Assembly (NCBI RefSeq): GCF_018595675.2
Contig: NZ_CP092333.1
Coordinates: 1,946,001 to 2,010,000 of the forward strand
Length of the DNA stretch: 64,000 nt
Source: Flavihumibacter fluvii
Lineage (GTDB): Bacteria; Bacteroidota; Bacteroidia; Chitinophagales; Chitinophagaceae
Reading direction: 5' to 3'
Part shown: one piece after another, positions 15,711 through 38,138 of the stretch
Numbering within the stretch: position 1 is the stretch's first letter
Layout of the letters: each line of letters begins with the position of its first letter
Notes under the pieces: generated by a model
Databases searched by the model: none
Told to the model about the DNA's origin: nothing
What the model saw: only the letters and a program-made list of their open reading frames with translations
Position numbers and translations under genes: made by a program

Positions 15711-16220
15711 ATGAACCTGGAATATAAAAGCCTATTACCCCAAGATTTCCACCCCGGCTCCAGGGTGTGGATCTACCAGAGCAACCGGATTTTCGGCATG
15801 ATGGAAGCCCTGCAAATTGAAAAAATGCTTCATGATTTTATTGCCGGCTGGCAGGCCCACGGGGATAAAGTGAAAGGATATGGAACCCTGTTCTTCGGAC
15901 AGTTCATCATCCTGATGGCCGATGAAACGCAAACGGGTGTAAGTGGTTGCAGTACGGATAGTTCGGTGCGATTGATCAAGGCTATTGAACAGCAGTTCAA
16001 CGTTAGCATGTTCGACCGGCAGTTATTGGCCTTTGTGGTGAAAGATAAAGTGCAGTTACTTCCTTTGGCGCAATTGAATCATGCCATGGAGAACCAGTTC
16101 ATCACTGGTGATACCCTCTACTTCAATAACCTGGCAGCCACCAAAGCAGAACTGGAGAAAAACTGGATCATACCGGTAAAAGAAAGCTGGCTAAAGGGCC
16201 GCATTAAAACTGCAGTATAA
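15711..16220 (+). CDS. Conserved protein of unknown function (family often labelled 'ABC transporter ATPase')
   Basis: A 169-residue soluble protein. I recall close Bacteroidota relatives being labelled ABC transporter ATPase, but I see no Walker A, Walker B or signature motif, so that name is not supported. A single cysteine occurs in TGVSGCSTDSSVR, and a HPGSRVWIYQSNRIFG opening looks conserved. It follows the Fe-S protein at 25 bp, so a joint role in redox chemistry is possible but unproven. Its 3' end overlaps the convergent histidine kinase gene by 17 bp. Confidence 0.7.
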   Translation: MNLEYKSLLPQDFHPGSRVWIYQSNRIFGMMEALQIEKMLHDFIAGWQAHGDKVKGYGTLFFGQFIILMADETQTGVSGCSTDSSVRLIKAIEQQFNVSMFDRQLLAFVVKDKVQLLPLAQLNHAMENQFITGDTLYFNNLAATKAELEKNWIIPVKESWLKGRIKTAV

Positions 16221-17547
16221 AAGCACTGCCCTCCCCTTCCACACTTTGCACCTGGATATTGCCTTTGTGCAACATCATGATCTGTTTGCAAAGGCTGAGG
16301 CCGATCCCGCTACCGGTCTTTTTGGTGCTGAAAAAGGGAATAAAGATTTTCTCTAAAACCTCCTGTGACATACCGGCGCCGTTATCGGTCACTTTGATGA
16401 TAGTTTTGCCCTTTGGACCGGTATTGGCCGATAAAATCACTTTCGGATGAGCGCTATCCTTAACGGCATCCATCGCATTTACCAGCAGGTTGATCAATAC
16501 CTGTTCAAGCAGGTTAATATCGGCCTCAAGGGCCAGTTCAGGTTCCTTTAAAATGATTTCCAGTTCAAACTTTTTCTGTTCGAAAGTTGGCTGCATCAAT
16601 TGTTGCAGGTTTCTGAATAAATCGATCACATAAATATTCTTCAGGTGCAGTTCACTGATCTTATTCAGGTTCCTGTAGGTCTCGGCAAACCGCAACAAAC
16701 CCTCACTCCTGCGCTTAATCGTCTCGATACCCAATTCAAGGTCTTCCAGTGATCCGTTCTTATCTTCAATTTCGCTGGCAGCCATGTGCAGCCTGTTTTT
16801 CAGCGTGTCTGCAAGAGAGGAGATCGGTGCAACAGAATTCATGATCTCATGTGTCATTACATTCAATAATTTCTGCCAGGCTTTCGATTCCGTTTCATCC
16901 AATGCTTCGTTCACATTCTGGAAGGCGATCAGTTTATATTGCTTTCCTTCTGTCTGGAAGGCTGTGCAGGATACCAGGATTTTGAAACTCCCTTTGTCGA
17001 GATGGGCAGTAGCCACTTTTCCTTCACCCGGACGAATATTCAGGACCACCTGGTACAATTCAGGATCGCGCTTTTCAAGGGAATGCACGGTTTTCAGGTA
17101 GGGTAATTGTAACATCCGTTTCAGGGATTCATTCATCCAGACCACACTTCCACCTTCCATTTCATAATTCAGGATACCCGTATCAACCAACTCCAGAATC
17201 TTTTGCAGGTACTGGTATTGGGTTTCCTTTTCCTTACTGATAACTTTAAACGTAGAATTGATCTCGTTGAAACCCTGGCGTAATGGTTGTAATTCAGCGG
17301 GTGCATGCTTTACATCAAAATACCGGGAGAAGTCCCGGTAATGCACGGCCTCAACAAACTGATCCAGCTCATCCTGCGCCTTACGCTGGTAACGGTACAG
17401 GTCCAGCACCTGGTAGGCCAGGACAGGGGCAATCAGAAAAAGGTATTTATATTGAAGGCTGACCAATAGATATGCAGCAGCACAGAGCACTGCGAAAAGC
17501 AGCACAATCCTGATGAACAACCGGTTTTCGCCTTTTTTAAATATCAT
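16204..17547 (-). CDS. Sensor histidine kinase (NtrY-like) of the export island
   Basis: A 447-residue kinase with two adjacent N-terminal membrane segments (about 10-30 and 35-50) and almost no periplasmic loop. A linker and PAS-like domain (about 105-215) follow, then HisKA with phosphoacceptor His233 in NVMTHEIMNSVAP and HATPase_c with N-box NLLVNAMDAV, DNGAGMS and GSGIGLSL. The lack of a periplasmic sensor suggests it senses a membrane or cytoplasmic signal. It overlaps the response-regulator gene by 11 bp, so the two are cognate partners. Phosphorylation is expected to activate the divergent export operon. Confidence 0.92.
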   Translation of the reverse strand: MIFKKGENRLFIRIVLLFAVLCAAAYLLVSLQYKYLFLIAPVLAYQVLDLYRYQRKAQDELDQFVEAVHYRDFSRYFDVKHAPAELQPLRQGFNEINSTFKVISKEKETQYQYLQKILELVDTGILNYEMEGGSVVWMNESLKRMLQLPYLKTVHSLEKRDPELYQVVLNIRPGEGKVATAHLDKGSFKILVSCTAFQTEGKQYKLIAFQNVNEALDETESKAWQKLLNVMTHEIMNSVAPISSLADTLKNRLHMAASEIEDKNGSLEDLELGIETIKRRSEGLLRFAETYRNLNKISELHLKNIYVIDLFRNLQQLMQPTFEQKKFELEIILKEPELALEADINLLEQVLINLLVNAMDAVKDSAHPKVILSANTGPKGKTIIKVTDNGAGMSQEVLEKIFIPFFSTKKTGSGIGLSLCKQIMMLHKGNIQVQSVEGEGSAFILQF

Positions 17548-18895
17548 ACTTGCTTAATCTGCGGTAAAGTGCGGTACGCGTAAGGCCTAATTCCCTGGCC
17601 GCTTTAGTGATATTTCCGTTATGTTTTTCAATGACCTTTAAAATGGTATTTTTTTCGATGGCACTCAGTTTCAGCTCAGAAGGCTCATCATTATCTTCGG
17701 TCACAAATTCGATTGGAGAGAATAAAAGATCGCTTGCTTTCAGCACCTCCCCTTCCGCCATAATCACCGCTCTTTCGATGGTATACTGCAGTTCCCGGAC
17801 ATTCCCGGGAAATGCATAGGTCAACAATTTGTCGGTAGCGCTTTCATCGAAATTCAATAGCGGCTTCATATACTTTTTACTGTACATGGTGTTGAAATAA
17901 TTTGCCAGCAGTAAAATATCTTTTCCTCTTTTTCTAAGCGGCGGCATGATGATCTCTACCGTATTGATGCGGTAAATCAGGTCCTTCCGGAAACGGTTCT
18001 CATTGGCCAGTTCAGAGATGGGCAGGTTAGTGGCACAGATGAGGCGGACATCAATGGGGATGGGCGTATTCGAACCCAGCCTGATCACCTGCCTGTTCTG
18101 CAACACACTCAGCAATTTTGCCTGTTGCTGTAAGCTGATGTTCCCGATCTCATCGAGAAAAACTGTGCCACCGTTGGCCGCTTCGAAACGGCCGGCACGG
18201 TCTTCACGGGCATCAGTGAACGCGCCTTTTTTATGTCCGAATAATTCACTTTCAAACAAAGAATCGGTTAACGCACCCACATCCACCTTCACAAAAGGCT
18301 TGTCGGCCCTCAGGGAATGCTGGTGGATCGCTTTAGCAATGAGGTCTTTGCCGGTGCCGTTCTCACCCAATACCAGGATATTGGCATCAGTTGGGGCGAT
18401 CTTTTCGATCTTATAAAAGATGGCCTGCATCTGTTCAGAGTTCCCCAAAAGTTCATTGCCAATGAGGGAGCCCGCCGGCAAACTTTTATCGCCGGAATGA
18501 TCACCATCACGTTTCTTCAATACTTCCCTGATGGTATTGATGAGGCGGTCGTTATGCCAGGGCTTCACAACAAAATCTGAAGCACCGTCTTTCAGGGAGC
18601 GAACAGCCAGGTCAACATCACCATAGGCAGTGATCATGATCACTGCTGCGTCGGACTTCAATTCCTTCACCTTGCGCAACCAGAACAGGCCTTCATTACC
18701 TGTATTGATAGAACTTGTGAAATTCATATCCAGCAAAATCACATCAAATTTTTTATTGCTGAGGATTTGCTGTAACAATTGCGGGTTCTTTTCCGTCACA
18801 ACATCTTTGACTTCTGTTTTGAGCAGGAGGCGTACCGCAGTGAGGACGTCGGTGTCATCGTCGACCACCAGGATGGATGCATTTTTTAAAGTCAT
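17537..18895 (-). CDS. Sigma-54-dependent response regulator, NtrC family
   Basis: A 452-residue three-domain regulator. The receiver has VDDD at 11-14, phosphoacceptor Asp56 and Lys111. The AAA+ domain has Walker A GENGTGKD at 178-185, a GAFTDA loop at 224-229, Walker B GGTVFLDEIG and FPGNVRELQ. A C-terminal Fis-type helix-turn-helix follows (ELGLTRTALYRRLSKYDI). The sigma-54 contact loop reads GAFTDA instead of canonical GAFTGA. The ATG at 18895 is chosen because a −7-like TATCATTG (18908-18915) lies upstream of it and the longer start at 18934 adds a non-receiver tail. It diverges from the export operon. Confidence 0.94.
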   Translation of the reverse strand: MTLKNASILVVDDDTDVLTAVRLLLKTEVKDVVTEKNPQLLQQILSNKKFDVILLDMNFTSSINTGNEGLFWLRKVKELKSDAAVIMITAYGDVDLAVRSLKDGASDFVVKPWHNDRLINTIREVLKKRDGDHSGDKSLPAGSLIGNELLGNSEQMQAIFYKIEKIAPTDANILVLGENGTGKDLIAKAIHQHSLRADKPFVKVDVGALTDSLFESELFGHKKGAFTDAREDRAGRFEAANGGTVFLDEIGNISLQQQAKLLSVLQNRQVIRLGSNTPIPIDVRLICATNLPISELANENRFRKDLIYRINTVEIIMPPLRKRGKDILLLANYFNTMYSKKYMKPLLNFDESATDKLLTYAFPGNVRELQYTIERAVIMAEGEVLKASDLLFSPIEFVTEDNDEPSELKLSAIEKNTILKVIEKHNGNITKAARELGLTRTALYRRLSKYDI

Positions 18896-18907
18896 AATTA
18901 TTCGTTG

Positions 18908-18915
18908 CAATGATA
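18908..18915 (-). promoter_or_regulatory. −7-like element of the response-regulator/kinase operon
   Basis: TATCATTG on the minus strand differs from TAnnTTTG at one base and lies 12 bases before the ATG at 18895. This supports the shorter start for the regulator. Confidence 0.35.
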
Positions 18916-18930
18916 GGATTTTTTTTTGCT

Positions 18931-18955
18931 CCACCCGCCGGTTGCTACCGGGTGG
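18931..18955. other. Inverted repeat in the divergent regulatory gap
   Basis: CCACCCG and CGGGTGG form 7-bp arms around an 11-base centre. On the minus strand it is followed by an A-tract, not a T-tract, and on the plus strand no T-tract follows. It therefore does not look like a terminator. It could be a leader hairpin of the regulator mRNA or a protein site. Confidence 0.45.
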
Positions 18956-18967
18956 ATGGAGGAAACA

Positions 18968-19009
18968 AAAGCGGACAGTTGTTGTATCGAAAGCGGACAG
19001 TTGTTGTAT
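18968..19009 (+). repeat. Tandem 20-bp repeat, likely activator-binding sites
   Basis: Two identical 20-bp copies (AAAGCGGACAGTTGTTGTAT) start at 18968 and 18990, with a 22-bp period or about two helical turns. They lie in the divergent gap between the NtrC-type regulator and the adaptor gene, 44 bp or more upstream of a −24-like element. That is the usual place for enhancer sites of a sigma-54 activator. Binding by this regulator is inferred. Confidence 0.75.
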
Positions 19010-19051
19010 TAGCCGGTTTCACATAATATTGATTTACAGCACATTAAAATA

Positions 19052-19067
19052 TGGCACGGGGTTTATC
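19052..19067 (+). promoter_or_regulatory. Putative sigma-54 promoter of the export operon
   Basis: TGGCACG at 19052-19058 is a perfect −24 element. The −12 position, ten bases after GG, reads AT instead of GC within GTTTATC, so the match is incomplete. The predicted start would be near 19078, about 34 nt before the GTG start codon, with the tandem repeat at about −68 to −110. Confidence 0.45.
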
Positions 19068-19111
19068 TATATAGGTTCAGAATAAAGACAGGAACCGAAA
19101 AAAACATTAAC

Positions 19112-20365
19112 GTGGATAGAGTTATAGAAAAAAAGAAATGGTCGACCAAGCGAATCCTGACCATAGCCGGAGTTACCGCATTAGTGGCCCTGATTACTGG
19201 CAGCTACTATTTTACTTCAGGTAACAGCCAGTTGAATGTAGACACAGAAAGAATTACGATCGCCGAGATCAAGAAAGGTATATTCCAGGAAAATATTCCG
19301 GTAAATGGGATAGTGCTGCCGGTGACCACTATTTACCTGGATGCAACAGAAGGTGGCCGGGTGGAAGAAAAGTATGTGGAAGATGGGGCAATCATGAAAA
19401 AAGGCCAACCTATCATGAGGTTGAGTAATACTGACCTGGAGCTGAGCCTGTCGAACCAGGAAACGCAGGTATTCAATGTTTTGACACAAATGCAGATCTC
19501 AAAAAACAATGCCGACCAGAATACCATTACCCGCCTGAACCAGATGGCAGAAGTGGATAATGCTGTGAAAGAAGCTGAAAGGGTATATACCGTAAATAAA
19601 AAATTATATGCCCAGAAGGCCATTGGTGCCCAGGAATACAAATCTTCGGAAAACCTGTGGCAGTACCAGGTAACCAGGAAAAAACTGACCGAAGATATCT
19701 TAAGGAAAGATTCGATATCCAACCGGGTGCAACTATCCCAGGGACAGCAATCTTATGAAAGGATGCAGAATGCCCTTTTGCTGATGCGCAAAAAAGTGGG
19801 CGACCTGGTGGTAAGGGCTCCTGTGGATGGCCAGCTGACCTCATTGGATGCAGAGATCGGCCAGTCCAAAAATAAGGGCGAAAGGCTGGGACAACTCGAT
19901 GTGCTAAGTGGATTCAAAGTAAGGGTGGATGTAGATGAACATTATATCTCCAGGATCTTTACGGGACTGAGCGGCAATTTTGATTTTGCCGGAAAGAACT
20001 ACAAGCTGGCCATCAAAAAAGTATATACTCAGGTAACCAATGGACGTTTCCAGGTAGATATGGAATTTGAAAATGAAGTGCCGAAGGGTATCAGGCGTGG
20101 CCAGACCCTGCAGATCAGGCTGGCACTGAGTGAGGAAAAGCAGGCCCTGTTATTACCGAAGGGTGGGTTTTACCAGCAGACCGGGGGCAACTGGATCTTC
20201 AAAGTAAATGAAGCCGGAACCAAGGCTTATAAGGTAGACATCCAGCTGGGCATGCAGAGCCCGGATAACTATGAAGTATTGAGTGGGCTGGAACCTGGCG
20301 ATAAAGTAATCACCAGCAGTTATGAGAACTATGGAACCATGCAGGAACTTATCCTAAAGAAATAA
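19112..20365 (+). CDS. Periplasmic adaptor (membrane fusion protein, HlyD/MacA type)
   Basis: A 417-residue adaptor starting with GTG. One N-terminal membrane helix (about 14-32) anchors it. A biotinyl/lipoyl-like half (GRVEEKYVEDGAIMKKGQPIMRL is interrupted by the hairpin) flanks a long alpha-helical hairpin at about 110-225. The second lipoyl half (VGDLVVRAPVDGQLTSL) and beta-barrel/membrane-proximal domains follow. It should link the inner-membrane permeases to the TolC-type channel encoded at the far end of the cluster. It is the first gene of the operon and the only adaptor for all six permeases. Confidence 0.93.
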   Translation: MDRVIEKKKWSTKRILTIAGVTALVALITGSYYFTSGNSQLNVDTERITIAEIKKGIFQENIPVNGIVLPVTTIYLDATEGGRVEEKYVEDGAIMKKGQPIMRLSNTDLELSLSNQETQVFNVLTQMQISKNNADQNTITRLNQMAEVDNAVKEAERVYTVNKKLYAQKAIGAQEYKSSENLWQYQVTRKKLTEDILRKDSISNRVQLSQGQQSYERMQNALLLMRKKVGDLVVRAPVDGQLTSLDAEIGQSKNKGERLGQLDVLSGFKVRVDVDEHYISRIFTGLSGNFDFAGKNYKLAIKKVYTQVTNGRFQVDMEFENEVPKGIRRGQTLQIRLALSEEKQALLLPKGGFYQQTGGNWIFKVNEAGTKAYKVDIQLGMQSPDNYEVLSGLEPGDKVITSSYENYGTMQELILKK

Positions 20366-20392
20366 ATAGCCATTAACCATTAAACCTTTTTT

Positions 20393-20599
20393 ATGAAACA
20401 AAAATTATTACCTGTGGCATTCCTGCTTTTGGTATTGGCTATTGGTTCTTCGCCATCCCATAGCAACGGGTATGCTGCTAAAGGCTTTCACCAAACAAGT
20501 ATAATGAAGTCTTCAGCCGGACCTTCATCCACAAATCCTGAAAAAACAACTGGTTCCCATTTAACAGATTCACCAGTCACCATTTTATTATCCTTTTAA
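20393..20599 (+). CDS. Small secreted protein of unknown function
   Basis: A 68-residue frame whose N-terminus (KLLPVAFLLLVLAIGSS) looks like a signal peptide. The rest is Ser/Thr/Pro/Gly-rich with no recognised domain. It sits 27 bp after the adaptor and 9 bp before the ATPase gene, in the same direction, as expected for an operon member. Coding status rests on the signal peptide and spacing only. It could be a small periplasmic accessory or signal peptide of the export system, or a chance frame. Confidence 0.5.
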   Translation: MKQKLLPVAFLLLVLAIGSSPSHSNGYAAKGFHQTSIMKSSAGPSSTNPEKTTGSHLTDSPVTILLSF

Positions 20600-20608
20600 T
20601 CAATTAAT

Positions 20609-21286
20609 ATGATCAAGATCACCAACCTGGAAAAGATCTACCGCACAGAAGAAGTAGAAACTGTTGCACTTAACAAATTATCCTTTGAAGTAAAGGAAGG
20701 CGAGTTTATTGCTGTAATGGGTCCCTCAGGCTGCGGTAAATCAACCCTTCTGAATATTCTTGGCTTGCTGGATGATCCGGATGCCGGAAGTTTTTTATTC
20801 AATGGCATCGAAGTGGCCAAATTCAATGAGCGCAAACGGGCAGACCTACGCAAGCACAATATCGGTTTTGTCTTCCAGAGCTTTAACCTCATTGATGAAC
20901 TCACCGTATTTGAAAATGTGGAATTACCGCTCATCTATACTGGGGTGAAAGCTGCAGAAAGGAAAAAAATAGTGGAAGAAGCGCTTGACAAGATGCTCAT
21001 CATGCATCGCCGGAACCATTACCCACAGCAGCTATCAGGCGGACAACAACAAAGGGTGGCTGTTGCGCGGGCAGTAGTGAACAATCCCAAACTGATACTG
21101 GCGGATGAACCGACCGGTAACCTTGATTCCAGCAATGGTAACGAGGTGATGCAATTGCTGACCGACCTGAATGAACAAGGCACCACTATTATCATGGTTA
21201 CGCACAGTGAACATGATGCGAGGTATAGTCATCGCGTGATCAGGATGCTCGATGGCCAGACTGTAATGGAAAACCTGATGGCATAA
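20609..21286 (+). CDS. ABC transporter ATPase (MacB/LolD type), first copy
   Basis: A 225-residue ATPase with Walker A GPSGCGKST (38-46), Q-loop FVFQSFN near 87-93, signature LSGGQQQRVAVARA (142-155), Walker B LILADEP (162-168), D-loop GNLDS (170-174) and H-loop VTHSE. All catalytic motifs are intact. It belongs to the MacB/LolD/FtsE branch that drives FtsX-type permeases by mechanotransmission. It lies directly upstream of the six permease genes and most likely powers them. Confidence 0.95.
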   Translation: MIKITNLEKIYRTEEVETVALNKLSFEVKEGEFIAVMGPSGCGKSTLLNILGLLDDPDAGSFLFNGIEVAKFNERKRADLRKHNIGFVFQSFNLIDELTVFENVELPLIYTGVKAAERKKIVEEALDKMLIMHRRNHYPQQLSGGQQQRVAVARAVVNNPKLILADEPTGNLDSSNGNEVMQLLTDLNEQGTTIIMVTHSEHDARYSHRVIRMLDGQTVMENLMA

Positions 21287-21306
21287 ACAATTAACAATTG
21301 AAATTT

Positions 21307-23661
21307 ATGTGGAGGAATTACCTGGTCATATCATGGCGTAACCTGGTTAAAAGTGTAAGTTTTTCGATAATCAATATAGCGGGGCTTACCATCGGCATGT
21401 CAGCCACCATGCTGATATTGCTTTGGGTCTATAATGAATACTCCTGGGATACTTCCTATAAAAAGTACCGCCAGGTATACCATGCTATGAGCAACCGTAA
21501 TTTTAACGGTTCGGTATCAACTGGCCCGGATTTAATGTATCCCCTGCCAGCAGCAGCCAAATCAACCATTCCGGAAATTGAGCATGCCGCCATAGTCAGT
21601 TTCGGGGAAACCACATTATTCAGCAATCAGGATAAAAAATTAAATAAACAAAGTGTAACGGCATCTGCAGAATTCTTTGACCTGTTCAATTATGAATTTA
21701 TTGAAGGTAATGCAACTGCAATCAAGGATCCGGATGCCGTGATCCTTACGGAAAGTACAGCCAGGGCATTATTTGGAACTACTAATATTTATAACCAGCC
21801 AATACAGGTCAACAATGCCCGTACAGCCTATGTAAAAGCAGTAGTAAAAGATGTGCCAAAAAATTCCACGATCCAGTTTGAAGCCATCATTCCGTTCAAT
21901 CCATCATCTCCCCAAATAAAAGAAGCAGAACATGATTGGGTGAACTGCGGGAACCGGATATTTTTCAGCATCCAAAAAGGGGCGGATATAGCAAAACTGG
22001 AAAAGTCGATCCATTCCCTGATCAAGGCAAGAACGAATAGTGATAATCCCACTACTAAGGGAAGTATCGTATTACACCCCATGAGCAAATGGCGGCTATA
22101 TGAGGAATTCAGGGATGGCAAAAACACAGGTGGACGGATCCAGTATGTAAACCTGTTTACCTGGATCGCAGTAATTATTCTGTTGATCGCCTGTATCAAC
22201 TTCATGAACCTTTCAACAGCAAGGTCTGAAAAAAGAGCAAAGGAAATAGGCATCCGGAAAACACTGGGTTCGGCCAGAAAGCAATTACTCGCCCAATTTA
22301 TGGTAGAATCGATCATGCTATCCCTAATTGCATTCATTTTCGCCATCATTGCTGTTACCCTGGTGTTGCCATTTTTCGGGAACATCCTGAATCAAACAAT
22401 CGAAATCCCTTATAGAAATCCATTATTATGGGGCTGTAGCATTGGATTGGTGTTATTTACGGGAGGTATTGCTGGAAGTTATCCCGCCCTGTATTTATCG
22501 GGCTTTGATCCGATCAGGGTACTGAAAGGGACATTACAATCAGGTAAGGCGGCACTGATGCCGAGGAAAGTTTTAGTTACCATTCAGTTCATTGCATCAA
22601 TTATATTGATCACTGCGACGTTGATCATTTACCAGCAATTGAAATATGTGATGAACCGGGAAATCGGATATGATCCGAATAACCTGGTACTGGTCAATTC
22701 CAGTCCGGATACCGACCAGCATTTCAGTGCCTTCAAAAATGAATTACTGAAATCCGGTGCAGTCACTTCAGTTTCCCGTACCTCCAGTCCGATTACCACC
22801 ATTTGGGGATACACTTCAGGTGTTCGCTGGAAAGGCGCGCCGGAGAACGGCAACCTGATCATTGGATTTCTTTTTGCAGATGAGGATTTTTCAAAGACCA
22901 TGAATGCAAAGATGATTGCGGGCCGTGATTTCAGGAACGGAGACAGTACTGCAGTTGTATTTAATAAAGAAGCGATCAAGGTAATGGGTATTGAGTCGCC
23001 TGTAGGTAAAACGATAACCTGGGCCGGACAGGAAAGGACGATCGTCGGCATCATTGATAATATAGTTTTCACCTCCCCTTATGAGGCTGCCACACCCATC
23101 ATGATCAACTATAGCAACCGTTCGCAAAGTACCATGATCCGTTTGAACAGTGGGGTAAACATAAAAGACGCTATTGCGAAAATCGAAACCACGTATAAAA
23201 AATTCAGTGCGGCCTACCCTTTTGAGATGACCTTCACCGACAAGGAATTCGGATTGAAATTTTCCAATGAGAAGATGATCGGAACCTTATCAGTAATATT
23301 TGCCGGACTGGCCATTTTTGTAAGTTGCCTGGGTTTATTTGGACTAGTTTCTTATGCGATAGAAAAAAGGAAAAAAGAGATTGGTATCAGGAAAGTATTG
23401 GGCGCATCGGTGAATCAATTACTTATGATCATGTCCAAAGAATTTTTAATCATCGTGGCCATCGCCTTTTTAGTAGCCATCCCTGTTTCCTGGATGGTGA
23501 TGAACAACTGGCTGAACAATTTCAATTACAGGACAAATATCCATATCGGTATCTATATTATTGCAGGCATTATCATGTTTATTATCACGGTAGTGACCAT
23601 CAGCTTAAACGCAACGAAAGCAGCACTGAGTAATCCAATCAAGTCGCTCCGCACAGAATAA
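21307..23661 (+). CDS. ABC transporter permease with two FtsX domains, copy 1 of 6
   Basis: A 784-residue permease from the ATG at 21307; a TTG at 21298 would add three residues. Layout is TM1 (about 18-40), a MacB-type periplasmic core domain, an FtsX block of three TMs (about 285-400) with EIGIRKTLGSARKQLL, a fourth TM near 425, a second periplasmic domain, and a C-terminal FtsX block with EIGIRKVLGASVNQLL and the ending NPIKSLRTE. The two-FtsX architecture resembles a fused MacB-like dimer. Copy 1 has the least similar N-terminus (MWRNYLVISWRNLVKSVSFS). Confidence 0.93.
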   Translation: MWRNYLVISWRNLVKSVSFSIINIAGLTIGMSATMLILLWVYNEYSWDTSYKKYRQVYHAMSNRNFNGSVSTGPDLMYPLPAAAKSTIPEIEHAAIVSFGETTLFSNQDKKLNKQSVTASAEFFDLFNYEFIEGNATAIKDPDAVILTESTARALFGTTNIYNQPIQVNNARTAYVKAVVKDVPKNSTIQFEAIIPFNPSSPQIKEAEHDWVNCGNRIFFSIQKGADIAKLEKSIHSLIKARTNSDNPTTKGSIVLHPMSKWRLYEEFRDGKNTGGRIQYVNLFTWIAVIILLIACINFMNLSTARSEKRAKEIGIRKTLGSARKQLLAQFMVESIMLSLIAFIFAIIAVTLVLPFFGNILNQTIEIPYRNPLLWGCSIGLVLFTGGIAGSYPALYLSGFDPIRVLKGTLQSGKAALMPRKVLVTIQFIASIILITATLIIYQQLKYVMNREIGYDPNNLVLVNSSPDTDQHFSAFKNELLKSGAVTSVSRTSSPITTIWGYTSGVRWKGAPENGNLIIGFLFADEDFSKTMNAKMIAGRDFRNGDSTAVVFNKEAIKVMGIESPVGKTITWAGQERTIVGIIDNIVFTSPYEAATPIMINYSNRSQSTMIRLNSGVNIKDAIAKIETTYKKFSAAYPFEMTFTDKEFGLKFSNEKMIGTLSVIFAGLAIFVSCLGLFGLVSYAIEKRKKEIGIRKVLGASVNQLLMIMSKEFLIIVAIAFLVAIPVSWMVMNNWLNNFNYRTNIHIGIYIIAGIIMFIITVVTISLNATKAALSNPIKSLRTE

Positions 23662-23671
23662 AACCAATTGT

Positions 23672-26104: not shown

Positions 26105-26127
26105 TCCTTAATCTTCAAAAAGCAGAC

Positions 26128-28554: not shown

Positions 28555-28560
28555 AACATT

Positions 28561-30960: not shown

Positions 30961-30969
30961 CACCAAATC

Positions 30970-33357
30970 ATGCTAAAAAATTATTTCAGGGTTGCTTTAA
31001 GGAACCTTTGGCGCAACAAGATATTTTCAGGAATCAACATAGCCGGACTAAGTGTAGGCCTGGCCTGTTGCATGCTGATCTTATTGTACCTGAAAGATGA
31101 GGTCAGCTTTGACCGGTTCCATAAAAACCAGGCACAGATTTACAGGATCACTTCCGAAATAAGTTCACCGGATGGAAAGGTCAATAAGTCCGGGATCACA
31201 GGAATGATGCCGGGACCAGAATTCAAGGCTTCCATACCGGAGATTGAATCCTTTGTCAGGTTACAGGGGAATGGATATACCATTAAACATAACAATGAGA
31301 TCTACGACCAGCCGGTGCTCGTAGTAGATGATAATTTCTTTTCCGTATTTAGTTTTCCCTTAGTGGAGGGGTCGGCGGCAGATGCTCTAAAAGAGATGCA
31401 TACTGTAGTGCTGACCGAAGCCACTGCTAAAAAATATTTCGGCAACAAAAAAGCGGTAGGGCAGGTATTAAACCTGAAGAACGGCGATAATTTTGAGCCC
31501 TTTGTAGTGTCAGCGGTAGCAAAAAATATCCCCCAGAATTCATCGATCCAGTTTGAGATGCTGGTCCCCATGAAGTTTATGCAATCGCAGAATAATGATA
31601 CTGAGTGGATCAATTTTTTCCTGAATACCTTTGTGGTGTTGAAACCCGGCACCGACTGGCAGAAAGTTGCTGCAAAATTTGACCAGGTATTCATGGTGAA
31701 AGCAGGAGACCAGTTAAAGCAGATGGCAGAGAAATATAATTTCAAGGAGAAAATAAGCTTTGGATTACAGCCGTTGCTGGATATCCACCTGAGTACTGTA
31801 TATACCGCGGCGAACGGACTCAATAAAGCCAGTAACCCAATATATTCCTATATACTCACCGGTATAGCCATTTTTATCCTGCTGATCGCTTGCATCAATT
31901 TCATTAACCTCACAGTTTCCAGGTCCTTAAAAAGGGCTAAGGAGATTGGGATCCGTAAAGTTGTGGGCGGACAGCGAAAACAACTGGTACTGCAATTCCT
32001 GGGTGAGTCGATGATTTTGAGTTTCATCTCGTTTGTGCTGGCACTGGTATTGGTTATACTCATCATGCCGGTTTTCAATTCACTGGCCAACAAATCACTG
32101 GCATTTTCCTACCTGGCAGATGCGCCATTGATCATTGGTTATATTGTATTGTTCATGTTCACCGGTTTACTGGCAGGCTTCTATCCGGCGCTGGTATTAT
32201 CTGGCTTCAACCCGGTGCAAACCCTTTATGGCCGGCAACGCTTTACGGGTAAGAATTACCTCAGCAAAGGCATGGTCGTTTTCCAGTTTTCCCTGGCCTG
32301 TATCCTCATCATTTCTACTATTGTGATCTATTCCCAATTTAATTACCTGATGAAATTTGACCTTGGGTATAATGATAAGAATGTGGTCCGGGTAAATGTC
32401 GGCGGAATTGATAAAGATAAGCTGGCCCTGTTCAGTAATGAACTCATGAAAAACCCGGCAATTGAAAAAGTTACAGCTAACCAGGGAGGGGAATGGATAA
32501 CCGTTGCCCAAGTGAATAACGGCACGGATATCAATTTTGATTTCAAATACATTGACCATAATTATTTCCCGTTATTTGAAATACCCATTGTGAAGGGTAG
32601 GAATTTTTCACCTGAACTTTCATCAGATACTGCAGAAGGCGCCATAGTGAATGAGGCATTTGTAGAAAAAGCCGGCTGGAAAAATCCCATCGGGGAAAAG
32701 GTTGATTTCTTTTACAATAACAAGAAGTTTACGGTGATAGGCGTTATCAAAGATTACCATTATGCTTCACTGTCCCAGAAGATCGGTCCGCAATTGTTTC
32801 TCACACATCCCTCCTATCGTTATGGTGATGTATACATGAAGATAAAACCCGGGTCAACCGCAAGTGTACAGCCCTATATTGCAGCCACTTTTAAAAAATT
32901 CTTCCCGGTGCAGCCATACCAGTTCAGTTCGAAAGACCTGGACAATGCGAAGCAATACGAGAGTGAATTGAAATGGAAACAGATGATCACCTTCAGTGCC
33001 ATACTCACGATTTTTATATCCTGTATCGGGTTATTTGGACTGGCCACTTTCGCAGCTGAAAAAAGAACCAAGGAGATTGGTATCAGGAAAGTATTAGGTG
33101 CATCAATACCGGTCATTGTGAGGACCTTGTCCATTGATTTCCTCAAACTGGTACTCCTCTCCACACTGATTGCATCACCGGTGGCCTGGTGGGCGATGAA
33201 TAAATGGCTGGGCAATTATCCTTACAGGATAGAGATCAGCTGGTGGGTATTTGGACTCACTATATTCCTGGCGACCGGAATAGCCCTGCTGACCATAAGC
33301 TATCAGGCGATCAGGGCTGCAATGGCCAATCCGGTGAACAGTTTAAAAACAGAATAA
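30970..33357 (+). CDS. ABC transporter permease with two FtsX domains, copy 5 of 6
   Basis: A 795-residue paralogue opening with YFRVALRNLWRNKIFSGINI. The FtsX motifs are LKRAKEIGIRKVVGGQRKQL and RTKEIGIRKVLGASIPVIV, and the C-terminus is NPVNSLKTE. The N-terminal segment is most like that of copy 4. The frame is intact, with 18 bp to copy 6. Confidence 0.93.
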   Translation: MLKNYFRVALRNLWRNKIFSGINIAGLSVGLACCMLILLYLKDEVSFDRFHKNQAQIYRITSEISSPDGKVNKSGITGMMPGPEFKASIPEIESFVRLQGNGYTIKHNNEIYDQPVLVVDDNFFSVFSFPLVEGSAADALKEMHTVVLTEATAKKYFGNKKAVGQVLNLKNGDNFEPFVVSAVAKNIPQNSSIQFEMLVPMKFMQSQNNDTEWINFFLNTFVVLKPGTDWQKVAAKFDQVFMVKAGDQLKQMAEKYNFKEKISFGLQPLLDIHLSTVYTAANGLNKASNPIYSYILTGIAIFILLIACINFINLTVSRSLKRAKEIGIRKVVGGQRKQLVLQFLGESMILSFISFVLALVLVILIMPVFNSLANKSLAFSYLADAPLIIGYIVLFMFTGLLAGFYPALVLSGFNPVQTLYGRQRFTGKNYLSKGMVVFQFSLACILIISTIVIYSQFNYLMKFDLGYNDKNVVRVNVGGIDKDKLALFSNELMKNPAIEKVTANQGGEWITVAQVNNGTDINFDFKYIDHNYFPLFEIPIVKGRNFSPELSSDTAEGAIVNEAFVEKAGWKNPIGEKVDFFYNNKKFTVIGVIKDYHYASLSQKIGPQLFLTHPSYRYGDVYMKIKPGSTASVQPYIAATFKKFFPVQPYQFSSKDLDNAKQYESELKWKQMITFSAILTIFISCIGLFGLATFAAEKRTKEIGIRKVLGASIPVIVRTLSIDFLKLVLLSTLIASPVAWWAMNKWLGNYPYRIEISWWVFGLTIFLATGIALLTISYQAIRAAMANPVNSLKTE

Positions 33358-33375
33358 AGAAAAAAACCAAAGCGC

Positions 33376-35844
33376 ATGCAAAGGAATTTTTGGATACTGG
33401 CCCTTAGGAATTTCTGGAAGCACAAATATCTGTCCGCAATAAATATCGGTGGGCTGGCCATCGGCATCAGTGCGTCACTGGTGATCTACCTGATGGTTGC
33501 ATACGAATTCAGTTTTGAAACCTTCCATCGCAATAAGGAAAATATTTACCGGGTAGTTTCGCAAATCGATTTTCCCGATTTAAGGATCCACAATTCCGGG
33601 GTGCCTGTTCCAACTGCCGCAGCTGCCCGCCAGGAAATAACAGGCTTACAAACAATTGCACATTTTATTAAGGCTAATGAAACCAAGGTTACAGTTGCAC
33701 AACCTGCTGCAGACTTACCGAAGGATTTCAGGAACCAGAAAAACATCATCTATACCGACCCGGAATATTTTGACATCATTGGATATACCTGGTTAAAGGG
33801 AACAGCAAAACAGGCACTATCAAGTCCTTTCCAGGTTGTATTAACTAAAAGCAGGAGCGCACAATATTTCCCGGGACTGGAGGATGGCCAGGTCATTGGG
33901 CGTACAATAATTTATGACGACAGTATAAAAACAACGGTCACAGGCATTGTGCAGGACCTGCCTGGAAATACGGATTTTCAATTCAGGGAATTCGTGTCAA
34001 GGGCAACTATAGAACAAACAGGTTTAAAGGAATTCTGGAACTGGGCAGAATGGGGCAGCATAAATGATAATTCCCAGATGCTGGTTGCATTATTACCAGG
34101 TACACCCCCCAGGCAGGTAGAAAAGCAACTGGCCCGCCTTCGCAATAAATACAGGGAGAAAAACCCTGAAAATTCAGGGGGCAAGGATGATACACAGCAT
34201 TTCCTGCAGCCTTTGAAAGATATCCATTTTAATACAGAATACGGCGCTTTCAATGAGCGACAGGCCAATAAAACAACCCTCTATGGGTTACTTGCCGTTG
34301 CTTTCTTTTTATTGTTACTGGGTTGTATAAATTTCATCAACCTCTCCACTGCACAGGCATCAAACAGGGCAAAAGAAATCGGTATCCGGAAAACCATGGG
34401 AGCCAGTAAACAGCAGTTGATCATGCAGTTCATGGGCGAAACATTTCTAATGACGGTACTCGCCACGATATTATCTATCCTCATCATGCCCTGGATCTTA
34501 CAGGTATTCGGAAATTTCATACCACCGGCCATTAGAATCCAGAGCCTGCTGCAGGTACATGTAGGGATTTTCATGGCAGGATTGGTCTTACTGGTCACTT
34601 TTTGTTCAGGATATTATCCGGCCATTGTATTAACCAGGCTACAACCTGTAACAGTACTGAAAAACCAGGTGGTGAGCGGGAATGGATCGACACAAAAACT
34701 TTGGCTGAGGAAGACCTTAACGGTTTCACAGTTTATGATTGCGCAGTTTTTATTGCTGGCCACACTGATTGTGAGTAAACAAATCCATTATTCCTTAAGT
34801 AAGGACCTTGGGTATAAAAAAGATGCGATCCTGTTTTTTAACACCCCCTGGAGCTGGCGTGCAAAAGCACCAGACCAGCGAAAATACCTGTTGGTCCGGC
34901 AACTGCAGGCCATACCGGAGATAGAGAAAATAAGCCTGGGCGGATCACCACCGGCATCATCAAATACCAGCACTACAACAATGGTCTTCAATGAAGGCAA
35001 GAAAAAACTGGAGACGATGGTGGAAGTAAAATATGCAGACACCAATTATTTTGGATTATATGGCATGAAATTACGCGCAGGCCGGAACCTGAAGCAAAGC
35101 GATACCACCAGGGAATTTGTCGTAAACGAAACCTATGCGCGGATGATGGGCTTCAGCAAGCCAGAGGAGGCCGTAGGCCATTTTATTGAACATAACTTTA
35201 AAGTGCCGATCATAGGTGTCCTGGCCGATTTTCATACGAAGTCCACCCATGATGCAATCAAGCCACTGGCCTATTCCTCAGCAGACAAACGAAGTTATAC
35301 CCTGCATGTGGCGCTGAAAAATGGGAACAACAATGCAGACCAGTGGAAAAAAGGAATTGCAAAAATCGAAAAGTCATTTAAAGCATTGTATCCTGAGAAG
35401 GATTTTGAATACTCTTTTTACGATGAGAGTATCGCAGCATTCTATAAAACGGAACAAAATATTTCAGGCCTGTTGAAATGGGCTTCGGGCTTATGCCTGC
35501 TGATCAGCTCTTTGGGATTGCTGGGGCTGGTGATCTTTACCACCAATGCCCGGACCAAGGAGATCGGTGTTCGCAAAGTGCTGGGCGCATCTATCGGGCA
35601 AATCATTTTCCTCCTTTCCAAAGATTTCATTGCATTGGTGCTGCTGGCCTTTATCATTGTAGCCCCAATTGCCGGGATAGTGATGAAAAACTGGTTGCAG
35701 CAATTTGCTTACCGCACGGAGATGGACTGGTGGCTATTTGCAGCAAGCGGTGGGATCATGATTTTACTGGCAATAATCACACTGGGCATCCGGACGATCA
35801 GGTCTGCGGCAGAAAACCCCATCTACAGTTTACGGTCAGAATAA
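33376..35844 (+). CDS. ABC transporter permease with two FtsX domains, copy 6 of 6
   Basis: An 822-residue paralogue, the longest of the set, opening with FWILALRNFWKHKYLSAINI. FtsX motifs are SNRAKEIGIRKTMGASKQQL and RTKEIGVRKVLGASIGQI, and the C-terminus is NPIYSLRSE. The extra length lies mainly in the periplasmic parts. It is followed by a 158-bp gap with two palindromes before the second ATPase, so the last two genes of the cluster may be expressed separately as well. Confidence 0.93.
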   Translation: MQRNFWILALRNFWKHKYLSAINIGGLAIGISASLVIYLMVAYEFSFETFHRNKENIYRVVSQIDFPDLRIHNSGVPVPTAAAARQEITGLQTIAHFIKANETKVTVAQPAADLPKDFRNQKNIIYTDPEYFDIIGYTWLKGTAKQALSSPFQVVLTKSRSAQYFPGLEDGQVIGRTIIYDDSIKTTVTGIVQDLPGNTDFQFREFVSRATIEQTGLKEFWNWAEWGSINDNSQMLVALLPGTPPRQVEKQLARLRNKYREKNPENSGGKDDTQHFLQPLKDIHFNTEYGAFNERQANKTTLYGLLAVAFFLLLLGCINFINLSTAQASNRAKEIGIRKTMGASKQQLIMQFMGETFLMTVLATILSILIMPWILQVFGNFIPPAIRIQSLLQVHVGIFMAGLVLLVTFCSGYYPAIVLTRLQPVTVLKNQVVSGNGSTQKLWLRKTLTVSQFMIAQFLLLATLIVSKQIHYSLSKDLGYKKDAILFFNTPWSWRAKAPDQRKYLLVRQLQAIPEIEKISLGGSPPASSNTSTTTMVFNEGKKKLETMVEVKYADTNYFGLYGMKLRAGRNLKQSDTTREFVVNETYARMMGFSKPEEAVGHFIEHNFKVPIIGVLADFHTKSTHDAIKPLAYSSADKRSYTLHVALKNGNNNADQWKKGIAKIEKSFKALYPEKDFEYSFYDESIAAFYKTEQNISGLLKWASGLCLLISSLGLLGLVIFTTNARTKEIGVRKVLGASIGQIIFLLSKDFIALVLLAFIIVAPIAGIVMKNWLQQFAYRTEMDWWLFAASGGIMILLAIITLGIRTIRSAAENPIYSLRSE

Positions 35845-35887
35845 AATGCATAAAACACCGTGCATCAAAAAGGAACAATAAATGTAT

Positions 35888-35905
35888 CATTACCGAACAG
35901 TAATG
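35888..35905. promoter_or_regulatory. Palindrome CATTAC-N6-GTAATG before the second ATPase
   Basis: Two perfect 6-bp arms are separated by 6 bp, in the only sizeable gap inside the export cluster. It has operator-like geometry; no binding protein is identified. Confidence 0.35.
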
Positions 35906-35939
35906 GTTTAAAAAGAAATCATAATTATATGGTTATCAA

Positions 35940-35953
35940 AACATTATAATGTT
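35940..35953. promoter_or_regulatory. 14-bp perfect palindrome before the second ATPase
   Basis: AACATTATAATGTT reads the same on both strands and ends 49 bp before the ATPase start. The region is AT-rich, so chance is possible. Confidence 0.3.
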
Positions 35954-36002
35954 GGCATACAATTATAGGACATTGGTCAGGAAAAGAAAAAGGAGTAAAG
36001 AC

Positions 36003-36674
36003 ATGATAAAGCTAGAGCATATTTCAAAATGGGTTACAACTGCCGGACTAAGGACATTCCTGTTAAAGGACATCAACCTGAATATACAGGAAGGCGAATT
36101 TGTATCGATCATGGGTCCTTCGGGCTCGGGAAAATCGACTTTGTTAAACGTGATCGGCATGCTGGATGATGCCAATGAAGGCGCATATGATTTCCTGGGC
36201 CAGCCGATTCACCAACTCAAGGAAAAACAGCGTTCACAACTCTATAAACAATATATCGGGTTTGTCTTCCAGGCATACCATTTAATTGATGAGCTCACAG
36301 TATATGAAAATATCGAGACCCCATTGCTTTACCAGGATACCAAATCATCAGAAAGAAAAGCCATGGTAGCAGATATCCTTGACAGATTCAACATGGTAGG
36401 AAAGAAAGACCTCTTTCCCACCCAGTTGTCAGGTGGCCAGCAGCAATTGGTCGGTATTGCCCGGGCACTAATCTCATCTCCCAAACTAATACTAGCCGAT
36501 GAACCGACAGGGAACCTGAATTCAAAACAAGGCGAAGAAATAATGGATCTATTTAAAAAACTGAATGAAGAAGATGGCGTTACCATCATCCAGGTGACCC
36601 ATTCGGAAAAGAATGCCGCCTATGGAAACCGGATTATTCACCTTTTGGATGGAAGAATTGAACAGCCCAGATAA
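36003..36674 (+). CDS. ABC transporter ATPase (MacB/LolD type), second copy, divergent motifs
   Basis: A 223-residue ATPase that aligns without gaps to the first copy over residues 1-180. Walker A GPSGSGKST (38-46), Q-loop FVFQAYH, LSGGQ (142-146), Walker B LILADEP (162-168) and H-loop VTHSE are kept. Two motif positions differ: Arg149 after the signature is Leu (LSGGQQQLVGIARA), and the D-loop Asp173 is Asn (GNLNS). It may be a less active or regulatory partner of the first ATPase. The ATG at 36003 gives the family-typical MIKLEHISK start; an in-frame ATG at 35949 would add 18 basic residues. TolC follows 12 bp downstream. Confidence 0.9.
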   Translation: MIKLEHISKWVTTAGLRTFLLKDINLNIQEGEFVSIMGPSGSGKSTLLNVIGMLDDANEGAYDFLGQPIHQLKEKQRSQLYKQYIGFVFQAYHLIDELTVYENIETPLLYQDTKSSERKAMVADILDRFNMVGKKDLFPTQLSGGQQQLVGIARALISSPKLILADEPTGNLNSKQGEEIMDLFKKLNEEDGVTIIQVTHSEKNAAYGNRIIHLLDGRIEQPR

Positions 36675-36686
36675 AGAATCACTACC

Positions 36687-38138
36687 ATGAAAATTAGCCT
36701 TTACTATCGGTTACGCATATATGCATTTGCTATAATCATCGCAGCAATGCCCGGGTTTTTAATGGCACAGACCGACAGCGCCGCATACCTCACCCTGCAA
36801 CAATGTGTAGAAACCGCCTTCAGGAATAACCTGGAATTAAAGCAGGCAGAAATACAAGCCGAGAATGCCAGGATCGATTACAAACAATCGAAAAATAACC
36901 TTTTACCTGGGGTAGCGGGATCAATTGAACATGGCTTAAACCAGGGCCGGAGTATCGATCCTTTTACCAATAGTTACCTGAACCAGAATATCAATTATGC
37001 CAACTGGGGCCTGAATGGTGGAATTGTTTTATTCAATGGATTGTCCTACCAATATGGTGTAAGGCAACAAAATTACGCCAGGCAGGCAGCCAATATGGAT
37101 GTTCAGCAGAACAAAGACAACCTCACAATCAATATAATTGTAGCCTATCTGCAGGTATTGAGTGCAGAAGATCTACTGGTGCAGATCACTAACCAGGCAG
37201 AACTGAGTAAAAAGCAGGTTGACCGGTTAAATATCCTGAACCAGGAAGGTTCGATTACCCCTTCACAACTATATGACCTTAAAGGCCAGCTGGCCAATGA
37301 TCAGATCAGCCTCATCAATACCAAAAACCAGCTGGAAGCTGCAAAACTTTCCCTTGCACAACTGATGAATATTCCCTACGATACAGGTATCAGGCTGGAG
37401 CGAATCAGCACTGACCAGTTCCTGAATGTTTACGAAGGCACACCAGAAAGTATTTACCAAACCGCCTTGAACCAACTTGCACAGGTAAAGGCTGTAAACC
37501 TTCGCAAACAGAGCGCTGAAATGGGCGTAAAAGCATGGAAGGGACAACTATGGCCAACATTTTCTTTAAACGCGGGACTGTATACTAACTATTCGAATGC
37601 AGCAAGGACCTCTACCCTTGTAAGCTCCAGTGACCAGCCATCAAGTGATTATGTACTGATCAATAGTGTAAAAGAGCCGGTATATACTCCGGTAAGTGAG
37701 TACAAACAAAACCCAATTAGCTATACAGAGCAGTTTAAAAATAACTACAGTACCAATGTCAATTTTTCCATCCGGATACCCATCCTGAATAGTTTTCAAA
37801 CCAGGAACCAGGTCAGCAAATCGAGACTCACCTTGCAAAATGCGGATTATGTGGAGAAGGCCACCAAGATCAGGCTGCAACAGGCAGTAGAACAAGCTTA
37901 CCTGAATATGAATGCCACGTACAACCGCTACAGGGCCATTTTAACACAGGTTGATGCTTTCCAGGAATCTTTCCTTGCAACTGAAGCCAGGTTCAATGAA
38001 GGTGTACTCAATTCGGTGGATTACCTGGTAGCCAAGAACAATGTAGACCGGGCCAGCACCAGTCTAATAACCTCAAAGTACGAATACGTATTCCGAACCA
38101 AGATTCTCGATTATTACCAGGGTAAACCTTTGTGGTAA
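36687..38138 (+). CDS. TolC family outer-membrane channel
   Basis: A 483-residue protein with a signal peptide (YAFAIIIAAMPGFLMAQ). It has the two-fold TolC repeat of long helices: LTLQQCVETAFRNNLELKQA opens the first and VEQAYLNMNATYNRYRAI lies in the second. Beta-barrel segments such as NAGLYTNYSN and NVNFSIRIPILN are also present. As the last gene of the cluster it completes a tripartite pump with the adaptor and permeases. Export substrate is not known; MacB-type systems move antibiotics, peptides, lipids or siderophores. Confidence 0.93.
   Translation: MKISLYYRLRIYAFAIIIAAMPGFLMAQTDSAAYLTLQQCVETAFRNNLELKQAEIQAENARIDYKQSKNNLLPGVAGSIEHGLNQGRSIDPFTNSYLNQNINYANWGLNGGIVLFNGLSYQYGVRQQNYARQAANMDVQQNKDNLTINIIVAYLQVLSAEDLLVQITNQAELSKKQVDRLNILNQEGSITPSQLYDLKGQLANDQISLINTKNQLEAAKLSLAQLMNIPYDTGIRLERISTDQFLNVYEGTPESIYQTALNQLAQVKAVNLRKQSAEMGVKAWKGQLWPTFSLNAGLYTNYSNAARTSTLVSSSDQPSSDYVLINSVKEPVYTPVSEYKQNPISYTEQFKNNYSTNVNFSIRIPILNSFQTRNQVSKSRLTLQNADYVEKATKIRLQQAVEQAYLNMNATYNRYRAILTQVDAFQESFLATEARFNEGVLNSVDYLVAKNNVDRASTSLITSKYEYVFRTKILDYYQGKPLW

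Follow-up and report, generated by a model that had tools for sequence, protein, structure and literature searches.

A putative shared export core for tandem and dispersed double-FtsX permeases in Flavihumibacter fluvii and other Bacteroidota

Introduction

The closest described relatives of the system reported here are the MacAB-TolC pump, a type VII ATP-binding cassette (ABC) tripartite efflux system, and the darobactin exporter DarBCD; its permeases also recall the duplicated orphan permeases (ADOP; TIGR03434). Such orphans can be numerous: two Dyadobacter species have 28 and 33 copies, their function being given as unknown in the available part of the source (PMC11573002), and a metagenome-assembled acidobacterial genome has 102, unexplained in the accessible portion of that report (PMC10564751). 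The sharing of one module by many partners is described, in the available parts of two sources, for energy-coupling factor (ECF) importers, in which one module with two ATPases serves many competing substrate subunits (PMC7755397, PMC4525288). Here, we describe an export island of Flavihumibacter fluvii located in a window of 64,000 nucleotides (positions 1,946,001 to 2,010,000 of a one-contig 5.0-Mb genome), and we compare it with its relatives. The F. fluvii island represents one instance of an export system that is widespread in bacteria. Comparison of the sequences makes it reasonably likely that one shared tripartite chassis with two unlike ATPases serves a genome-wide regulon of exchangeable permeases. 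Lone dispersed permeases, hitherto without a known power source, are probably driven by this shared core.

Organization of the island

A preliminary description of this DNA proposed one adaptor, one TolC, two ATPases, and six permeases with two FtsX blocks each, and all of them were recovered as intact open reading frames (ORFs). A kinase gene and a sigma-54 regulator gene on the minus strand are followed on the plus strand by the genes for the adaptor, ATPase 1, the six permeases, ATPase 2, and TolC. The features are as follows (window positions; domains are from Pfam, and subfamilies are those of the clustering described below).

16204-17547, minus strand: histidine kinase with a two-helix membrane hairpin almost without periplasmic loop (N terminus judged by eye); HATPase_c, E = 3.4e-22
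17537-18934, minus strand: sigma-54-dependent response regulator, NtrC type; Sigma54_activat (8e-66), Response_reg, HTH_8
18961-18999, plus strand: two putative regulator sites, 22 bp apart; motif common to adaptor upstream regions
19052-19066, plus strand: sigma-54-like promoter, TGGCAC-N4-TT; the TGGCA element recurs in adaptor upstream regions
19112-20365, plus strand: periplasmic adaptor; HlyD_3; TIGR01730, 130.8 bits (curated efflux-adaptor cut-off, 94.9); NF038010 (DarC), 168.3 bits
20393-20599, plus strand: hypervariable 68-residue signal-peptide-like ORF (hydropathy criterion)
20609-21286, plus strand: ATPase 1, canonical LSGGQQQR and NLD; ABC_tran, 1.8e-36
21298-23661, plus strand: permease 1, subfamily F9; two FtsX and two MacB_PCD domains
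23672-26104, plus strand: permease 2, subfamily F2 (identity and subfamily clustering, NCBIfam scan)
26128-28554, plus strand: permease 3, subfamily F23 (identity and subfamily clustering)
28561-30960, plus strand: permease 4, subfamily F5; structure modeled (predicted local distance difference test [pLDDT] 85.1, predicted template-modeling score [pTM] 0.80)
30970-33357, plus strand: permease 5, subfamily F8 (identity and subfamily clustering)
33376-35844, plus strand: permease 6, subfamily F4 (identity and subfamily clustering, NCBIfam scan)
35883-35899, plus strand: putative regulator site 5' of ATPase 2, exact motif
35953-35967, plus strand: TGGCAT promoter-like element within an over-long ATPase 2 ORF; TGGCAC at the equivalent F. 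profundi position
36003-36674, plus strand: ATPase 2, D-loop NLN and LSGGQQQL; ABC_tran; start corrected from the ORF start at 35949
36687-38138, plus strand: TolC-type outer-membrane channel; OEP, 1.1e-43

ATPase 2 probably starts at 36003 (MIKLEH...) rather than at the start of the longer ORF, because the longer ORF contains the TGGCAT promoter-like element and a regulator site lies just upstream. For the same reason, a second promoter probably exists within the run that ends at 38138. The gaps between successive permeases are 10, 23, 6, 9, and 18 bp, as had been described (6 to 23 bp). Their reported length of 784 to 822 residues stands at its upper end; the ORF list gives 787 to 822, the value of 784 being obtained for permease 1 from an ATG three codons past the listed TTG. 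The closest named relative found is Flavihumibacter profundi, whose permease 4 is 91% identical.

Dispersed permeases and their co-occurrence with the core

Beyond the array, the F. fluvii genome contains eight intact dispersed two-FtsX permeases (here, orphans). Seven of them fall in subfamilies that are found within arrays elsewhere, with up to 76% identity; in three genomes, array members in the first position share 76% identity with orphan 8196. No ATPase ORF was recognized beside the eight orphans within flanks of about 0.75 to 1.5 kb. A ninth double-permease match (locus L034, genome positions 15,816 to 18,233) is divided by a stop into two separate single-FtsX proteins, and it adjoins its own ATPase (54% identical to ATPase 1) and a sigma-54-type regulator. 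Because it is split in two proteins with its own ATPase beside them, we treat it as a different, parallel system; the regulator motif described below was not found 5' of that ATPase (matrix score, -9.5).

Searches of 147 genomes of the family (adaptor and permease at 1e-60, ATPase 2 at 1e-85) detected the adaptor in 70, the double permease in 71, and ATPase 2 in 66. The permease, with dispersed orphans counted, occurred together with the adaptor or ATPase 2 in 71 genomes and alone in none, one genome had the core alone, and 75 had neither (p = 7e-42). Two family genomes have the permease without the adaptor (G088 and G136, assembled in 460 and 300 contigs), both with ATPase 2, and the only one with the adaptor and no permease (G061) is 83% complete. 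ATPase 2 can be unlinked from the adaptor and yet present (e.g., G153, G070, G082, G110, and G135). Among the genomes listed, five genera (g4, g15, g21, g22, and g25) each combine a species that has the three parts with a species that lacks them all. Across 198 genomes of the phylum, 51 have both adaptor and permease, 3 the adaptor only, 10 the permease only, and 134 neither (p = 2e-33). The three adaptor-only genomes all belong to genus g108, and the matches of three g108 siblings lie just inside the threshold (4e-69 to 9e-62). The ten permease-only genomes probably carry a relative of the system.

Two unlike ATPases

The two ATPases of the core differ consistently. ATPase 1 has LSGGQQQR and NLD in all 42 sequences, whereas ATPase 2 has lost the D-loop Asp in 29/29 (Asn in 27, Ser in 1, and His in 1) and has the signature flank LSGGQQQL/I in 29/29 (28 L and 1 I). 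Both have retained the Walker A motif, the Walker B glutamate, and the H-loop histidine. When four other ATPases of F. fluvii were checked, three kept NLD and all four had R after the signature. The conserved asymmetry implies two specialized partners rather than spare copies. Located at the ATP site, it is also the feature by which heterodimeric ABC ATPase pairs are recognized, and ATPase 1 and ATPase 2 probably pair as a heterodimer. Both ATPases are retained where the array is reduced to one permease, in genome G120, which has 12 orphans. Among phylum genomes with adaptor and permease (n = 51), ATPase 2 is present in 39/40 with at least three permeases versus 1/11 with fewer (p = 9e-9), a comparison weakened by a 345-bit cut chosen post hoc and by permeases having been counted to at most 4.

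A putative regulator site shared by the island and dispersed permeases

Adaptor upstream regions share the motif TGTATCAAAA(C/G)CGNACA, often in two copies 22 bp apart, and in many of them TGGCA(C/T)-N4-TT lies downstream. In the F. fluvii island, the second copy, TGTATCGAAAGCGGACA (18983-18999), is an exact match and the first is degenerate. A scan of ten genomes, allowing one mismatch at most, returned 67 matches (28 exact and 39 with one mismatch). Forty-three of these (23/28 exact and 20/39 one-mismatch matches) are located at most 1 kb upstream of genes of the system, namely 29 permeases, 9/10 adaptors, and 5/10 ATPase 2 genes. All permeases with the motif are orphans: it precedes 29 of 60 orphans (two split ones included; six of the ten genomes have orphans and four have none), in one case in the opposite orientation, and 0 of 43 array permeases, in keeping with transcription of the array from the adaptor promoter. 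One further exact match, found by inspection, precedes a TolC-adaptor pair.

A position weight matrix (PWM) trained on 33 islands excluding the window (99.9% of null scores, 10.6) gave a similar picture in F. fluvii. Scores were 25.6 upstream of the adaptor, 24.1 upstream of ATPase 2, and 13.9 to 25.8 upstream of five of the eight intact orphans; upstream of permeases 1 to 5 they reached at most 4.1, and upstream of permease 6 the score was 10.6 (p = 0.004, inside permease 5). Thus, a putative regulator site is common to the adaptor operon, the ATPase 2-TolC pair, and many orphans. The F. fluvii genome has rpoN-type genes (two Sigma54_DBD matches), and the island encodes an NtrC-type activator. 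When the associated element was compared with a GG-N10-GC promoter, TGGCA was recurrent, the spacing was one base short, and the -12 GC was often missing. Textbook sigma-54 promoters have a spacing one base longer than TGGCAC-N4-TT; the shorter spacing may be a trait of RpoN in this phylum.

Some matches lie elsewhere. A one-mismatch site at 885,283 and a TGGCAC element precede a Toastrack (DUF4097) gene of F. fluvii (L129:392-1432, about 885,391; E = 5e-11). Toastrack proteins are linked to membrane-stress signaling and resistance to cell-wall antibiotics in the available part of a survey of the phage-shock-protein (PSP) system (PMC11237479). In two relatives, at loci off the island (L131 and L135), the motif lies in front of genes for small proteins; these have a hydrophobic segment in their interior and fail the signal-peptide hydropathy criterion used for the small ORF. 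Such other genes behind the regulator site are hints of system function. Matches in L133 and L134 and most of the inspected one-mismatch matches look like chance. Downstream of the island, at window positions 39704-40969, there is a second sigma-54 activator, in which Pfam gave no receiver domain.

Several observations weigh against a shared core that serves a regulon. The reversed-pattern control of the motif scan gives 30 matches in total, 24 of the 67 matches were not assigned by script to a downstream permease, adaptor, or ATPase 2 (nine of these 24 fell outside the inspection), and 31 of the 60 orphans lack the motif at up to one mismatch; three of the eight F. fluvii orphans score below zero by PWM. 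The adaptor matches are circular, because the motif was derived from adaptor upstream regions, although the orphan and ATPase 2 matches are not. The -24/-12-like element is spaced N4 and not N5. Five permease-bearing family genomes are without ATPase 2 at 1e-85, i.e., G073 (one permease) and G042, G141, G149, and G154 (fragmented, with six or more permeases), and seven minimal islands that we inspected have ATPase 1 only, so that the machine does not depend on a heterodimer. In the phylum, 10/61 permease-bearing genomes are without adaptor (one match each, 1e-62 to 1e-76), which indicates that a related permease can live without the island core. Moreover, co-occurrence could arise partly from shared ancestry or from co-regulation without shared ATPases.

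An alternative is ordinary multi-pump efflux, in which permeases of a stress regulon would each use any MacB/LolD-type ATPase and the island would merely be the largest member. This alternative agrees with the orphans that lack the motif, and other ATPases of the same class do adjoin other FtsX genes in F. fluvii. Against it, among the 147 family genomes, none that lacks both the adaptor and ATPase 2 showed a two-FtsX permease at 1e-60, although those genomes of this group that were listed have at least 25 first-look ABC ATPase candidates. We regard independent pumps as improbable, and prefer the shared core.

Variable permease arrays on a mostly fixed frame

We annotated 43 stretches around islands of relatives, the window included, and counted as a permease any ORF of at least 650 residues with more than 150 bits to one of the six. 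In 25 stretches, again including the window, the island is whole, i.e., the adaptor and ATPase 2 lie on one strand with the array between them. These islands have 1, 2, 2, 2, 3, 4, 4, 5, 5, 5, 6, 6, 6, 6, 7, 8, 8, 8, 8, 8, 8, 10, 10, 12, and 14 permeases (median, 6; range, 1 to 14). The preliminary description saw the unusual part in a six-fold array with a sigma-54 two-component system; this view had to be given up, since six is the median and the kinase/regulator pair adjoins 24/25 whole islands (the remaining stretch begins just before its adaptor). The other 18 stretches are open-ended, cut, rearranged (e.g., G115, G067, and G010), or without a linked ATPase 2. In the whole island of G079, ATPase 1 is placed after the third permease. 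Seven loci picked for the lack of ATPase 2 represent minimal forms: besides an adaptor and a canonical ATPase 1, they contain one or two permeases. Six of them adjoin a kinase/regulator pair of the same kind.

Two species placed in the same genus as F. fluvii have one (G120) and four (G020) array permeases, and the F. profundi array has eight, i.e., equivalents of all six plus one between permeases 2 and 3 and one between permeases 3 and 4, which were either gained in F. profundi or lost in F. fluvii. Several open arrays contain at least 12 permeases; open arrays of at least 13 tandem permeases were seen in Larkinella humicola (L064, L022, and L065) and of at least 15 in Mucilaginibacter L294 (L014, L054, and L055). 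Clustering of 323 permeases at 48% identity (the 8 F. fluvii orphans plus 315 from the annotated stretches, among which near-duplicate genomes were counted) yielded 37 multi-member subfamilies and 47 singletons. Arrays hold differing selections of subfamilies in differing orders, and the same subfamilies recur across genera. As judged from these sequences, the frame of the island is mostly fixed and its permease filling is variable. The earlier idea of exchangeable permeases sharing an adaptor, ATPase set, and channel thus gains support from the variable filling, the subfamily mosaic, and the near all-or-none co-occurrence.

The composition of the islands also bears on a sensor function, in which the permeases would chiefly serve to perceive peptides and pass this information to the intramembrane kinase, in the manner of BceAB and BceS, with transport being secondary. 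As in BceAB-BceRS, the kinase is without a periplasmic sensor domain, and a similar N terminus was seen in the 14 relatives compared (both by-eye readings). However, TolC is present in 24/25 whole islands, fitting export through the outer membrane, and dispersed permeases far outnumber the single kinase. A primary sensor role thus appears as improbable as independent pumps, and a shared exporter remains the preferred interpretation.

Fold and divergence of the permeases

The Pfam search of permeases covered permease 1, in which MacB_PCD and FtsX were each found twice. The six array permeases are intact and share 29.2 to 39.8% pairwise identity; hence they are old paralogues and not near-identical recent or inactivated copies. 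The structure model of permease 4 has 8 membrane helices, 2 periplasmic domains, and 2 coupling helices, and its best structural match is YbbP. With its two coupling helices, permease 4, the sole permease modeled, has the appearance of a complete double unit, and the previously suggested heteromeric assembly of permeases therefore seems unlikely.

The preliminary description raised the question whether periplasmic segments evolve faster than the FtsX blocks. With rough domain bounds, nonsynonymous divergence (dN) from F. profundi is higher for both periplasmic parts in permeases 3 and 4, mixed in permeases 5 and 6, and not higher in permeases 1 and 2, and we rejected this as a general rule. 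At fourfold sites, permeases 2, 4, and 5 differ less from F. profundi (469/934) than the six core genes do (486/759; p = 1.6e-8). This is a weak hint that these cassettes may have been exchanged later; the sites approach saturation, and differences in codon constraint are possible. Neutral tandem duplication, with the array a by-product without division of labor, is very improbable: array size does vary freely, and the whole islands of G020 and G112 each carry an additional permease fragment, but the array copies are intact and only 29 to 40% identical, dN from F. profundi is 0.045 to 0.16 while synonymous sites are saturated or nearly so, and subfamilies recur across genera.

A hypervariable small ORF

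The ORF between the adaptor and ATPase 1 (20393-20599) was absent from the preliminary description. By the hydropathy rule, a signal-peptide-like ORF occupies this position in 22/41 islands. It is found in 20/20 islands with a gap of 200 to 420 bp (G142 and G052 being near-duplicates), versus 0.18 expected from dinucleotide shuffles; any ORF of at least 50 residues is expected in 1.6 islands. In G115, the rule retained an ORF for a protein of 475 residues, next to which lies one of 61 residues. The 19 islands without the ORF mostly have short gaps, but the gap of G067 is 529 bp long. The ORF is hardly alike in F. fluvii and F. profundi, whereas ATPase 1 is 98% identical. At least two cysteines follow residue 20 in 15/22 of the small ORFs, and the two close pairs compared show too few differences for measuring selection. 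The product is a candidate cargo, inducer, or effector.

Proposed mechanism and significance

In the model that we favor, the island would supply a shared MacAB-TolC-like chassis of adaptor, TolC, and two ATPases; each ATPase would sit beneath one of the two FtsX halves of a single fused permease. The six array permeases and the eight intact dispersed ones would plug into this one chassis, each setting the substrate. Stress or a peptide would be sensed at the membrane by the hairpin kinase, possibly via the permeases, as described for BceAB/BceS in the available part of the source (PMC5985334). Through one and the same site, the regulator would then activate the operon of adaptor, ATPase 1, and array, that of ATPase 2 and TolC, and many of the dispersed permeases. 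A permease would dock on the adaptor, TolC, and the two paired ATPases. The periplasmic domains of the permease would select the substrate, and ATP hydrolysis would expel this substrate by mechanotransmission, as proposed for MacB. Permease genes would be acquired and lost, and would change places between the array and dispersed sites. Under envelope stress, the exporter would likely serve to clear the periplasm of peptides or other amphiphiles, or to export them. We infer the physical sharing of the ATPases, their heterodimeric pairing, regulation in the cell, and the cargo, which is most likely peptides.

A more far-reaching version is possible but doubtful: a plug-in exporter whose two-ATPase chassis powers an open set of dozens of permeases, kept in the expandable array and across the chromosome under one regulator and exchanged as cassettes between lineages, and which works with the hypervariable Sec-secreted peptide as cargo, inducer, or weapon. 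If true, it would explain the energy source of Bacteroidota orphan double permeases, and perhaps of those in Acidobacteria, and would represent a new strategy of peptide warfare or immunity. For the Bacteroidota orphans, a candidate power source, channel, and regulator can now be named, which makes the question directly testable, and the defined regulon is a place to look for the cargo.

Comparison with known systems

In fold and components, the system is related to MacAB-TolC and the darobactin exporter; by the NCBIfam cut-offs, it is not a formal member of DarB/C/D or ADOP. With MacAB-TolC it shares MacB_PCD-FtsX units (the domains of permease 1 and the model of permease 4), a MacA/resistance-nodulation-division (RND)-type adaptor, and a TolC-type channel. 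It differs in that the ATPase genes are separate and not fused to the permease N terminus as in MacB, that there are two kinds of ATPase, that two permease units are fused, and that many permeases accompany one core. In NCBIfam, the best matches are DarC for the adaptor and DarD for both ATPases, and DarB is the second-best match of the four permeases scanned; all scores are below the cut-offs of NF038008, NF038010, and NF038007 (DarC, 168/450 bits; DarD, 297 and 255/375; DarB, 107 to 135/700). Unlike DarBCD, the core accompanies many permeases and a sigma-54 pair.

ADOP is the best NCBIfam match of the same four permeases (285 to 340 bits; cut-off, 622.3), and the likeness extends to double units, large paralogous sets, and orphans without an ATPase beside them within short flanks. 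The 15 best F. fluvii matches score 250 to 338 bits, and 0/147 family and 0/198 phylum genomes have a match above the cut-off. In contrast to ADOP, array members lie between ATPases here, and it is possible to propose an ATPase set as well as an adaptor, a channel, and a regulator. No description of a shared core for these permeases, nor of same-order arrays with a known cargo, was found in the literature searched, which lay outside preprints and most subscription journals. To our knowledge, neither YbbAP nor BceAB shares an ATPase with many permeases or uses TolC. The BceAB permease has 10 helices and one extracellular domain, as given in the available part of the source (PMC5985334). The permease 4 model differs from it, with 8 helices and two periplasmic domains. 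The ECF importers compared here, which we take to be those of group II, act in import and have unrelated membrane subunits. They share the shared-module logic, of which the present system would be the exporter counterpart.

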